From: Chitinophaga pinensis
GTDB taxonomy: Bacteria > Bacteroidota > Bacteroidia > Chitinophagales > Chitinophagaceae
Assembly: GCA_945872815.1 (NCBI GenBank)
Contig: CAMCAY010000004.1
Span: 1 to 64,000 of the forward strand
Length of the DNA stretch: 64,000 nucleotides
Direction: 5' to 3'
The notes under the pieces were generated by a model. That model did not search any database and was not told the DNA's origin. It saw nothing but the letters and a program-made list of their open reading frames with translations. Positions within the stretch are counted from its first letter, which is position 1. Every line of letters begins with the position of its first letter. Below, one piece after another: positions 8,452-13,495 of the stretch. The translations under genes and the position numbers were made by a program.

Positions 8452-9759
8452 TCATTTCATAGACAACAACCATTCTCTCAAACTATTATAATCAGCTTCC
8501 ATTTTGACAGACATTTTTGTTTTATGAATAATTTTTTCAATTGATTCTGGCAATGGAATTTTTTGCTGTATAACAGGTTCTACCACATCATAAAACTTCA
8601 CAGGGTGAGCTGTTTCAGCAAATACACCCTTTTGTGAGTGATTGTTATTTAAATATCTTTCCAACGCCAAAAAACCAACAGCGCCGTGCGGGTCTAACAA
8701 ATAATTACATTCCTGATAAATTCTTTTGATGGTATTTTTAGTTTCATCATCTGTTATGCTTACTGACGAAAAAACTTTTTTTAGTTCCGAAGCATCCATA
8801 CCAAATAATTGCTGTATTCTAATAAAATTGCTGGGGTCTCCTACATCCATGGCATTGGAGATAGTGGCTACTGGTGCCTTAGGCTTATAATGATGAGACG
8901 CAAGATATTCTGGAACCACATCATTGGCATTGCATGCAGCAATAAAATGTTGTATAGGCAACCCTGATTTCATAGCCAATAAGCCTGCGCAAATGTTTCC
9001 AAAATTTCCACTTGGAATACTAATAACCGGTGGCTGATTTTTATCAACCCATTGTTTGTATGCAAAAAAATAAAAAAATTGTTGAGGTAACCAACGTGCT
9101 ACATTTATTGAATTTGCAGAAGTTAAAAAAAGTACACTTGTTAAAATCGGATCTACAAAAGCCTGTTTCACCAAACGCTGACAATCATCAAAACTTCCAT
9201 TTACTTCAATAGCATGAATATTTTTACCCAATGTGGTCAATTGTTTCTCTTGCACAGTACTTACTTTACCCGAAGGATATAATATCACAACATCAACTCC
9301 TTCCACATCATAAAAGCCATCTGCAACTGCTCCTCCCGTATCACCGGAAGTTGCAACCAATACCGTCACTTTTTTATCATTGCCTTTTACAAAATAACCC
9401 AAACACCTGCTCATGAATCTAGCGCCAATATCTTTGAAAGCAAGCGTATTGCCGTGAAACATTTCCAATGAAAAAATAGACTCTTTTACAGGAACTAGCG
9501 GAATTGAAAAATTGACCGTTTGCGTTACAATATCTTTTAAAATATTTTCAGGCATTGAGTCTCCAACATAAGGCCTCATCACTTCATAAGCAATTTCCTC
9601 ATTGGGAATATCCTCAATTTCCTTTATAAATGAAGATTTAAATTGCGGGATAAACTCCGGGAAATACAACCCTTTATCCGGTGCTTGCCCGCTAATTGTG
9701 GCTTTTTTAAAACCAACTTCAGGAGATTGCCTATTCAGACTATAAAAATTCATTGTCAA
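8452..9759 (-). CDS. thrC: Threonine synthase
   Basis: MNFYSLNRQSPEVGFKKA, FHGNTLAFKDIGARFM (PLP lysine), VATSGDTGGAVADGF; adjacent to thrB and thrA. Confidence 0.96.
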   Translation of the reverse strand: MTMNFYSLNRQSPEVGFKKATISGQAPDKGLYFPEFIPQFKSSFIKEIEDIPNEEIAYEVMRPYVGDSMPENILKDIVTQTVNFSIPLVPVKESIFSLEMFHGNTLAFKDIGARFMSRCLGYFVKGNDKKVTVLVATSGDTGGAVADGFYDVEGVDVVILYPSGKVSTVQEKQLTTLGKNIHAIEVNGSFDDCQRLVKQAFVDPILTSVLFLTSANSINVARWLPQQFFYFFAYKQWVDKNQPPVISIPSGNFGNICAGLLAMKSGLPIQHFIAACNANDVVPEYLASHHYKPKAPVATISNAMDVGDPSNFIRIQQLFGMDASELKKVFSSVSITDDETKNTIKRIYQECNYLLDPHGAVGFLALERYLNNNHSQKGVFAETAHPVKFYDVVEPVIQQKIPLPESIEKIIHKTKMSVKMEADYNSLREWLLSMK

Positions 9760-9783: not shown

Positions 9784-10704
9784 TTATTTTATTAATTCTA
9801 CTCCATTATTCGCAACAGTAGTAACGTAAGTTTTATAATCAATGCCTATTTGATTATACACTGATTTCATTTCGTTTTCAACTAAACGAGCAATGGCTTC
9901 TGTTTCACTCAACATAAACAAAGAAGGGCCGCTTCCAGAGATTCCACCACCCAAGGCACCTGCATCCAAGCATTTACATTTTGCATCATCAAAGCCTGGT
10001 ATCAATTTACTTCTAACAGGCTCTACTATCACATCTTGTAGAGAACGTTGAATCAACTCGTAATCATTTTTCATAAATCCTGATACCAATCCTGCTACAT
10101 TAGCCCATTGCGTCACAGCATTTTTCAATGAAATTTCCTTTGGGAGAATTTCTCTGGCATAGGAAGTCTTTATTTCAATTTGTGGATGAATGATGGTAAT
10201 AAATAATGGAGGTATATTAAGAAAAATGATATCCATTGAGGGGGTGTCACGAATCAGCACCAAACCGCCATAAATACAAGGAGCCAGGTTATCCGCATGT
10301 CTTGATCCGCTGGCTAGCACCTCTCCTTCCATTGCAAATGAAATCAATTGCTTTTTATTGAAAGGTTTACCTAGTAATTCATTTGCAGCAACGACAACAC
10401 CTGCAGCACTTGCAGCACTTGACCCAATTCCACTACCAGGTTTTATTTTTTTGTCAATTACTAATTCAAAACCTTGTTCATAATTCAATGAATCCATCAT
10501 TGCCTGCAATGCGACACCTGAAATATTCACTTTAGGATCAGCAGGAAGTTGATAAGAATCTTTGTGTTTGATTAAAATCCCTGATTCTTCTTTTTTAATC
10601 AATTCAATAATATCATAAGGCTCATTTAATGCCATACCCAATATATCAAAACCACAACAGAGATTTGAAAGCGTAGCGGGAGATTTAACTTTAATTGAAT
10701 GCAT
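9784..10704 (-). CDS. thrB: Homoserine kinase
   Basis: GHMP kinase motif PGSGIGSSAASAAGVV; GGGISGSGPSLF; operon position. Confidence 0.96.
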   Translation of the reverse strand: MHSIKVKSPATLSNLCCGFDILGMALNEPYDIIELIKKEESGILIKHKDSYQLPADPKVNISGVALQAMMDSLNYEQGFELVIDKKIKPGSGIGSSAASAAGVVVAANELLGKPFNKKQLISFAMEGEVLASGSRHADNLAPCIYGGLVLIRDTPSMDIIFLNIPPLFITIIHPQIEIKTSYAREILPKEISLKNAVTQWANVAGLVSGFMKNDYELIQRSLQDVIVEPVRSKLIPGFDDAKCKCLDAGALGGGISGSGPSLFMLSETEAIARLVENEMKSVYNQIGIDYKTYVTTVANNGVELIK

Positions 10705-10706
10705 AT

Positions 10707-13166
10707 TTAATTTTTAGTTGCTCTTATAATATCTGCAAACACCCCACTGGCTGTTACTTCTGCACCAGCACCAGCACCTTTTACCACCAAAGGCTGTTCC
10801 TTATATCTATCTGTATAAAACAACACAATGTTATCCTTTCCATACAAATGAAATAAATCATGCTTTGGGTGAATGTGCTGCAAACCAACGGAGGCTTTTC
10901 CATTTTCAAAACTTGCCACAAACTTTAACTTGTTTCCGGCTTTATCAGCATTGCTGAATAATTCTTTAAAATGCGCTTCATATTGTTCCATGGAAGTGTA
11001 AAACTCACTGACAGTTCCTTTCATGCAAGCTTCCGGCATAAAACTACTATTGGCAATAGTATCCATTTCCATACATTCTCCCGCCTCTCTTGCCAGTATC
11101 ATAATTTTTCTCATTACATCTGTTCCACCTAAATCCAATCGAGGATCAGGTTCAGTGTAACCTTCATCTTGAGCCTGTTTAACCACCTCTGCAAATTTTC
11201 TTTTGCCATCATAGTGATTGAAAACAAAATTCAATGTACCACTCAATACCGCTTCAATTTTATGAATTCGATCGCCACTGTGAATCAAATCATTGATGGT
11301 ACTGATAACTGGAAGACCAGCCCCAACATTTGTTTCAAATAAAAAGGGAGCATTGAATTCTCTTGAAAGATCTTTTAATTTCCTGTAATTTTCATAAGAT
11401 GAAGATGCTGCTACTTTGTTGCATGCGACAACAGCAATACTTTTGTGTAAAAGCTTATAATAAATACTTGCCACTTCATCATTGGCAGTAATATCAACAA
11501 ATACACTATTTCTCAAATTAAGATCCAAAACAGTTTGAACAAATTTTTGCAAATCCGCCGGCTCCCCTGAATTCAATGAATCCCTCCAGCGTTCAATATC
11601 AATGCCCGATTCATCAATCAGCATTTTTTTACTGTTTATAATTCCTGTTAACCTTATGTTTAACCTCATTTTCTCCATCAAGAAAGAGGTTTGTTGCTGT
11701 AACTGTGCCAACAATTTACTTCCCACATTTCCGGCTCCTGCTAAAAATACATTGACTTGTTTGAAAGTTGTTTCAAAGAATTCTTCATGCAATACATTGA
11801 TTGTCTTTTTAACATCATTGGTATCAATTACTGCAGAAATATTTTTTTCTGATGACCCCTGTGCTATTGCTCTAATGTTGATACCATTTCTTCCCATTGC
11901 ACTGAACATTCTACCGCTAACACCGGTATGATTTCTCATATTTTCTCCCACAAGTGCAACAATGGATAGATTTTTTTCGATCTTAAGAGGTTCAACTTTT
12001 TGTAATGCTATTTCATTAAAAAAAGCGGCATTTACCGAATTGACAGCTTTTTCCGAAGCATCACCTTCAATGGCAACGGAAATTGAATGTTCGGAGGAGC
12101 TTTGGGTTATCAGAATAACATTTATTCTTTCATTGCTAAGCGATTCAAATAATCTTTTGGAAAAGCCCGGAATTCCTATCATTCCACTGCCTTCCAGCGT
12201 AATCAGACTTACATTATTGATACTGGATATACCTCTTACAATATTGGTTTCATTTTTAGCAGAATCAGCAACATTAACATTAGAAATTTTTGTACCAAAG
12301 TCATTTGGAGCGAAAGTATTTTTAATCCATACTGGAATGTTTTTTGTCATTACCGGCTGAATAGTTGGAGGATAAATTACCTTGGCTCCAAAATGAGACA
12401 ACTCCATTGCTTCTTGATAAGCTATATGAGGAATTATCTTAGCATTTAAACACAATCTGGGATCTGCTGTCATCATTCCGCTAACATCAGTCCAGATTTC
12501 AAGATTAGTTGCATCCAGTGCTGCAGCAAAAATGGCTGCTGTATAATCAGAACCACCTCTACCTAATGTTGTAGTAATCCCAGAAAAATCAGATGCAATA
12601 AAACCGGGTATTAGAAATAAATTTGTGTCTGTTTTATTTATAAAATCTTTGATTCTTGCATTGGTTTCATTATAGTCAACAACAGCAGCACCAAAAGCAG
12701 CATTGGTTTGAATTAAATCTCTGGCATCTTTCCATTGTGACTTAATTTTTTTTTCTTCAAAAGCGACTGAAATTATTTGCGAAGATAAAAATTCTCCATA
12801 GCTGGCAATTCTGTCTTTTGTTCGTGCAGTTAATTCACCCAACATAAAAATACCATCAAAAAGATTGTTCAATTCTTTACAAACTTTTTCTACTTGAGTA
12901 ATTAATTGTGTTTTGTTGTCAGATTGAATCAAGGTATTTACACAATCAAGGTGTCTTTGTTGAAATAAACCCAACTTTTCATTGTAAGATTCATTGCCAT
13001 TTGAAGCTATGGAAGCTGCATCAAGCAATAGATCCGTAACTCCACCTAACGCAGAAACCACCACAACCGTTTTATCTTTTTTGATAGCCTCCGAAACTAT
13101 TGAAATGACTTTTTGTATGTTTTCCGCATTGGCTACTGATGTGCCTCCAAATTTCAATACTTGCAT
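10707..13166 (-). CDS. thrA: Bifunctional aspartokinase / homoserine dehydrogenase
   Basis: MQVLKFGGTSVANAENI; GRGGSDYTA; ACT-like segments; C-terminal HSDH with GAGNVGSKL and GLPVIST. Confidence 0.96.
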   Translation of the reverse strand: MQVLKFGGTSVANAENIQKVISIVSEAIKKDKTVVVVSALGGVTDLLLDAASIASNGNESYNEKLGLFQQRHLDCVNTLIQSDNKTQLITQVEKVCKELNNLFDGIFMLGELTARTKDRIASYGEFLSSQIISVAFEEKKIKSQWKDARDLIQTNAAFGAAVVDYNETNARIKDFINKTDTNLFLIPGFIASDFSGITTTLGRGGSDYTAAIFAAALDATNLEIWTDVSGMMTADPRLCLNAKIIPHIAYQEAMELSHFGAKVIYPPTIQPVMTKNIPVWIKNTFAPNDFGTKISNVNVADSAKNETNIVRGISSINNVSLITLEGSGMIGIPGFSKRLFESLSNERINVILITQSSSEHSISVAIEGDASEKAVNSVNAAFFNEIALQKVEPLKIEKNLSIVALVGENMRNHTGVSGRMFSAMGRNGINIRAIAQGSSEKNISAVIDTNDVKKTINVLHEEFFETTFKQVNVFLAGAGNVGSKLLAQLQQQTSFLMEKMRLNIRLTGIINSKKMLIDESGIDIERWRDSLNSGEPADLQKFVQTVLDLNLRNSVFVDITANDEVASIYYKLLHKSIAVVACNKVAASSSYENYRKLKDLSREFNAPFLFETNVGAGLPVISTINDLIHSGDRIHKIEAVLSGTLNFVFNHYDGKRKFAEVVKQAQDEGYTEPDPRLDLGGTDVMRKIMILAREAGECMEMDTIANSSFMPEACMKGTVSEFYTSMEQYEAHFKELFSNADKAGNKLKFVASFENGKASVGLQHIHPKHDLFHLYGKDNIVLFYTDRYKEQPLVVKGAGAGAEVTASGVFADIIRATKN

Positions 13167-13252
13167 AAAATTAATTTTTAGTGAGATGCCTAATTGAAAG
13201 TAGAACTTTTTCTTTTCTTACAGCCGAAGCCCTTTGGATAATATAATTAGAT

Positions 13253-13327
13253 TCAACCCTGACGGGTTGTTGTGGTAGTTGAAGTGCGCAACTTTGAAGA
13301 AAACTTGTATTGTTTTGCATTTATCAT
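13253..13327 (-). promoter_or_regulatory. Candidate threonine attenuator leader peptide (24 aa) upstream of thrA
   Basis: Minus-strand translation MINAKQYKFSSKLRTSTTTTTRQG*. The T-S-T-T-T-T-T run is followed by a CAACCC-GTCA-GGGTTG hairpin overlapping the stop. A Bacteroidota-like promoter (TTG...TATCTTAG) lies just upstream. Confidence 0.6.
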
Positions 13328-13495
13328 AGATGAGTACTAAGATAACTAATTTTTTTATAAAAAACAATAGATCACTTTAATATTTGAAAATTATTCAAAA
13401 AACGGAAGAAAAAATAAATTATTAACAAAACTGCTTGCAATACTAATAATCATCACTAGTTTAAACAACAACAATAAATATTCCTCTTTAATAAA

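Follow-up and report, generated by a model that had tools for sequence, protein, structure and literature searches.

The closest counterparts of the threonine (Thr) leader considered here are proteobacterial thrL (Thr_leader, Rfam RF00506), the Bacteroid-trp leader RF01692, the thr leaders of Hymenobacter detected in the present analysis and the leader peptides of the mycobacterial cys operons, which lack a terminator and for which Rho has been suggested (PMC1262725). A survey published in 2010 knew of no such leaders beyond Proteobacteria and Actinobacteria except its own hisS case (PMC2965389). Strong clues of leader-peptide attenuation before amino-acid operons have been reported in Flavobacterium psychrophilum (PMC9723704); the main text of that study does not mention threonine and describes no module of the present kind, and it reports elements without Rfam matches. 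We analyzed a stretch of 64,000 nucleotides (nt) of Chitinophaga pinensis (assembly GCA_945872815.1, contig CAMCAY010000004.1, positions 1 to 64,000; hereafter the window), in which thrA-thrB-thrC are immediately preceded by a short leader open reading frame (ORF). Attenuation by leader peptides is in itself not new; what is new in the thr leader is the output element.

The leader resembles RF00506 in having a GC-rich hairpin that overlaps its end and differs in carrying no U-tract terminator or conserved antiterminator and, in their place, an invariant CATATNRYC module. RF00506 found no match in the window at the gathering threshold, in the locus up to E=5 or in 16 relatives up to E=1, and no other known Rfam family was returned by the scans of these sequences. 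With RF01692 the locus shares the plan of a Bacteroidota leader-peptide attenuator with regulatory codons near a hairpin, but RF01692 had no match in the window genome and the codons here are those of Thr and isoleucine (Ile). The mycobacterial cys operons and the Rho-dependent tnaC (cited in PMC1262725) are similar in the codon run near the stop, the lack of a terminator hairpin and the proposed role of Rho; the cys leaders serve another amino acid in another phylum. The thr leaders of Hymenobacter likewise precede an orthologous thrA and place the stop in the loop of the 1:2 hairpin, but they are full classical attenuators with a T-tract and without CATAT. In the window, as with leader peptides generally, the biosynthetic operon is directly preceded by a short ORF in which codons for the product amino acid form a run; neither the U-tract terminator hairpin nor, by thermodynamic prediction, the mutually exclusive strand 2 antiterminator of a classical attenuator was found. 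Our literature search brought up no description of a Bacteroidota threonine leader or of the CATATNRYC module, although it did not extend to subscription papers or to older comparative studies of attenuators, so that an earlier description is possible.

A Thr/Ile-rich leader peptide is conserved upstream of thrA

The features of the leader and of the RNA module that follows it, all on the minus strand, are as follows.

13253 to 13327, minus strand: leader ORF (thrL-like), MINAKQYKFSSKLRTSTTTTTRQG*, read from the sequence, with Thr/Ile content and position conserved in relatives
13265 to 13285, minus strand: Thr codon run ACT TCA ACT ACC ACA ACA ACC, the putative sensor, from the sequence and relatives
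13254 to 13269, minus strand: hairpin A, CAACCC-GTCA-GGGTTG, supported by covariation and folding; its 5' arm holds the last Thr codons
13237 to 13245, minus strand: CATATNRYC element with the sequence TATATTATC, which follows hairpin A after 13 nt and is predicted to be single-stranded
13221 to 13232, minus strand: GGGC-N-GCTG motif or hairpin B (GGC-UUCG-GCU), GGGCTTCGGCTG, conserved in sequence within the family

The 24-codon leader ORF starts 161 nt before the thrA start, and its TGA stop (13255-13253) overlaps the 3' arm of hairpin A. The TTTTT motif occurs once in the approximately 128,000 six-frame residues of the window, namely in this ORF. Among 150 genomes of the same family, 101 carried thrA, and 90 upstream regions were examined. 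A Thr/Ile-rich peptide was present at the same place in 86 of them, and one of the four regions without it is cut by a contig end. The family peptides mostly end in ..TTTR*, ..TTL* or ..TTIR*, and their stops lie mostly about 80-125 nt before thrA (range 63-266).

Codon statistics were computed for 131 related leaders whose stop falls within the loop of the hairpin. Thr or Ile stood at codons -2 to -9 in 75-97% of cases, as compared with 0-5% in the other frames, and over codons -3 to -9 the entropy of the third position (1.35-1.8 bits) exceeded that of the first (0.2-1.1 bits). The far greater third-position entropy and the near absence of Thr/Ile from the other frames argue for selection on a translated peptide. 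The same mixture of Thr and Ile codons is found in E. coli thrL. The original prediction had turned on whether homologous regions keep the Thr run and its frame; both, together with the hairpin, proved to be conserved across the family, the flavobacteria and another class. Altogether, the leader peptide very probably acts as the Thr/Ile sensor of thrABC.

In many family leaders the Thr run is also immediately preceded by an inverted repeat, GTAGC..GCTAC (for example L026, L027, L031 and L033; peptide VAxxAT), which was recognized by eye and might form another hairpin.

Hairpin A and an invariant ATAT form a conserved RNA module

The perfect hairpin that had been noted at the leader stop was found at 13269-13254, and only four perfect hairpins of 6 base pairs exist in the window when 4 or more GC and a loop of 3-6 are required. 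Hairpin A is backed by covariation: 33 double-change cells were counted vs 10.5 in shuffles, none of 500 shuffles reached 33, and the signal collapsed once the partners were slid. Variants such as CAACCC/GGGTTG, AATCCGC/GCGGATT and TACCC/GGGTA occur among the relatives. The folding z-score was -3.2 in the family, with a paired probability of 0.95-0.99; folding of the window leader as a single sequence was uninformative (z 0.02). A resemblance of hairpin A to the anticodon arm of transfer RNA (tRNA)-Thr was considered and rejected, the loop being set by the stop codons and no anticodon being kept across groups.

Downstream of hairpin A, the first three bases of ATAT were invariant over 157 leaders (A, T and A, 100% each), the final T reaching 98-100%. 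CATATNRYC is predicted to be largely single-stranded (pairing probability 0.24-0.34 in predicted ensembles), and a search of these ensembles for a partner of ATAT found it mostly unpaired, with no conserved partner. The distance between hairpin A and ATAT is fixed (median 12-14 nt; counted from the first base of the 3' arm, CATATNRYC follows at about 14-15 nt), whereas that between ATAT and thrA ranges widely, over 16-251 nt in the family group and 62-178 nt in flavobacteria. CATATNRYC is followed by TGGGC..GCYG in the family and by other hairpins elsewhere. A significant folding signal for hairpin B was obtained only in flavobacteria and in family f24, which belongs to another class; in the window's own family a strong hairpin B was rejected on energy (z -0.2), although the sequence is conserved. 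These data strongly support the view that hairpin A, ATAT and the GGGC..GCYG motif constitute one conserved module, as judged by comparison. The [C/T]ATATTATC element, the GGGCTTCGGCTG motif and the Ile codons mixed among the Thr codons of relatives had been overlooked in the original prediction.

Near the beginning of the leader ORF, two groups show an excess of a second [CA]ATAT[TC] copy (78/122 leaders vs 23 in shuffles and 33/44 vs 9.7). It stands in differing reading frames between the groups (61/78 vs 24/33; for example L031 and L293), which suggests selection at the RNA or DNA level. The window has no such copy, and in family f24 its frequency does not exceed that in shuffles.

Most thr leaders lack the terminator common in his leaders

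A simple scan of the window revealed no U-tract terminator between the leader and thrA, as had been stated before, and the his leaders of the same genomes served as an internal control. In 30 genomes compared, an intrinsic terminator was found in 26 his leaders and in two thr leaders, both of the latter marginal and consisting of hairpin A plus a loose T-rich tail. Every one of the 24 discordant pairs was his-only (p 1e-7, indicative, the genomes being related). The four his leaders without a terminator come from family f24 genomes. Strict terminator patterns were met in only 4/122 and 2/44 thr leaders of the two groups, and loose ones in 40/122 (vs 4.8 in shuffles) and 30/44 (vs 1.6). Similarly, genome G168 has a trp leader (RF01692) with a canonical terminator, GGCTTGTC-ATCA-CGACAGGCC-T9, and a thr leader without one. 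The comparison shows that the module of the thr leaders, as far as predicted terminators tell, is not an intrinsic terminator.

In Hymenobacter, the thr leaders possess the classical 1:2, 2:3 and 3:4 elements (strand 1, ACCCGC; strand 2, CGGGCTGC; strand 3, GCAGCCCG; strand 4, CGGGCTTTTTTT) followed by T5-7. Since a terminator without CATAT is found there and CATAT without a terminator elsewhere, the two look like alternative outputs of one sensor.

The his leaders yielded observations of their own. Peptides such as HIHHHHTYPSR*, MKINIHIHHHHFISNG and ..QLHHHHFHYCSQAMC preceded clear intrinsic terminators before hisG in 26/26 class-mates tested (flavobacteria and the window's family, among L315-L342). 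The f24 his leaders without a terminator are L313, L314, L326 and L335, three of which share TTACTGATTTC right before the hisG ATG. In the window genome (G000, 2.4 Mb) hisG was not found; as this genome is 99.85% complete, the organism is probably a histidine auxotroph.

Distribution of the leader in Bacteroidota

A covariance model, R1, was built from 66 relatives with the window left out. It matched the window with 50 bits (E 4.8e-10), the next best match in the genome reaching 19.5 bits and no other being credible. R1 matched 91/150 genomes of the family and 39/393 genomes of the phylum, including flavobacteria and another class. Except for L154, every phylum match examined belonged to a Thr/Ile leader immediately before thrA; L154, like L093, is a false positive that falls within or next to an unrelated gene. 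The module was found in named loci of Niastella, Longitalea, Chitinophaga, Sediminibacterium, Flavobacterium, Chryseobacterium, Cloacibacterium and Sinomicrobium, and looser versions in Kordia, Algibacter, Seonamhaeicola and Solitalea. Among the genomes sampled from the order's other families, most showed no leader, and none was seen in Acidobacteria-labelled metagenome-assembled genomes with a similar thrA.

Family f63 (L160, L167, L168, L171, L174, L175, L176) has a thrA about 63-66% identical to that of the window and no clear Thr leader, so the leader would have been lost there or thrA would have moved without it.

Promoter and genes of the operon

Two promoter elements precede the leader ORF.

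13337 to 13344, minus strand: Bacteroidota-type -7 element TATCTTAG (TAnnTTnG), enriched upstream of related leaders
13365 to 13367, minus strand: putative -33 TTG element, from the sequence only and weak by itself, 20 nt upstream of the -7 element

The -7 element lies nine nt before the leader ATG. TAnnTTnG was present in 75/122 family-group leaders vs 26 in shuffles and in 42/44 flavobacterial ones vs 7.6, sitting about 113-120 nt before the leader stop. From this position the transcript is predicted to start a few nt before the leader start, which is in line with the Bacteroidota-like promoter proposed earlier. A sigma-70 promoter scan gave none on the relevant strand, as expected for a Bacteroidota promoter. 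Comparison strongly supports translation of the leader and the putative sensor role of its Thr/Ile codons, and it likewise favours transcription of the leader from a predicted promoter of its own.

The genes downstream were identified with NCBIfam models.

10707 to 13166, minus strand: thrA, bifunctional aspartate kinase/homoserine dehydrogenase (AK-HSD I; NF006959, 1012 bits)
9784 to 10704, minus strand: thrB, homoserine kinase (TIGR00191, 221 bits)
8452 to 9759, minus strand: thrC, threonine synthase (TIGR00260, 272 bits)

The predicted 24-codon Thr-rich ORF just before thrABC and the identities of the three genes were confirmed.

Discussion

We consider it likely that the leader is a ribosome-mediated attenuator which senses charged tRNA-Thr and tRNA-Ile and controls thrABC through pausing and factor-dependent termination. 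With sufficient Thr and Ile, ribosomes would clear the leader and hairpin A would form. RNA polymerase would then pause near ATAT, 11-14 nt downstream of hairpin A, and Rho or a different factor would terminate transcription by the paused enzyme within the untranslated stretch that separates the leader from thrA. When Thr or Ile is short, a ribosome stalled in the run would block both hairpin A and access of the factor, leading to read-through. The spacing between hairpin A and ATAT resembles that of the hairpin-stabilised pauses of the E. coli his and trp leaders. When strand 1 was masked, as by a stalled ribosome, the predicted accessibility of the thrA start changed by only 0.007 (mean differences 0.002-0.008). 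This lack of change, and the fixed distance from hairpin A to ATAT beside the variable one from ATAT to thrA, favour an effect on RNA polymerase over masking of the thrA start; the output is probably transcriptional rather than translational. Of the two outputs suggested originally, Rho-dependent or translational control, the latter received no support from folding; for the former, what has been established is the presence of a rho gene in the organism (TIGR00767, 623 bits). Several points weigh against this mechanism. The leader is only mildly C-rich and G-poor (C minus G at the 91st-93rd percentile), not a striking Rho utilization (rut) site. Rho alone leaves the invariant ATAT unexplained, the spacing is the sole argument for pausing, and in the window and some relatives the stop follows hairpin A instead of lying in its loop. 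Rho as the specific termination factor is a possibility to which we give somewhat less than an even chance.

Alternatively, hairpin A itself could be an atypical intrinsic terminator or pause, with a GC-rich stem, a few bases and a U-rich linker (ACATTTTC), whose folding would be prevented by a ribosome stalled on the Thr codons of the 5' arm with no need for a separate antiterminator. The hairpin is indeed very stable and conserved, flavobacteria have 50-87% T, and the family a little less, at linker positions -6 to -2 before ATAT, loose terminator patterns exceed those in shuffles, and both thr terminator matches in the 30 genomes were hairpin A. What speaks against it is a U-tract that is displaced as well as interrupted, the near absence of strict patterns, the full terminators in the his leaders of these genomes and, again, an invariant ATAT left without a role; we regard this explanation as unlikely. 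Less probable still is translational control, in which stalling in the leader would refold the RNA and expose the thrA start. Poly-cysteine leaders in mycobacteria offer a reported precedent, translation initiation in Bacteroidota is sensitive to structure, the window lacks a terminator and the untranslated gap is short in most genomes. The masking result and the wide variation of the ATAT-to-ATG distance speak against it, and the only position-conserved partner predicted for strand 2 once strand 1 was masked was a C-rich stretch of the thrA coding sequence.

A similarly low probability is given to the idea that CATATNRYC binds a trans-acting protein or small RNA through which the switch is completed. 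The invariance and predicted single-strandedness of ATAT would fit, as would the enrichment of the second copy in two groups in different frames, but that copy is absent from the window and not enriched in family f24, and no candidate factor was found. That the leader is a functionless chance ORF is hardly credible; short ORFs are common in AT-rich DNA, yet the peptide, the hairpin and ATAT are conserved across the family and the phylum. Returning to attenuation through pausing and a termination factor, we put forward, at slightly under even odds, a wider proposal: hairpin A-CATATNRYC-hairpin B may be an undescribed, widely conserved Bacteroidota output element without an intrinsic terminator, which would act through programmed pausing and a factor or RNA-binding partner and be evolutionarily interchangeable with the classical terminator of Hymenobacter.

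The textbook paradigm of leader-peptide control rests on a terminator hairpin. A large phylum would appear to keep the Thr sensor but to swap the terminator for a conserved RNA module that has no Rfam entry, and the his leaders of the same genomes, with their classical terminators, provide a natural comparison for the study of terminator-free leader-peptide control. The module may thus represent an unrecorded regulator of the threonine genes in common soil and water bacteria.
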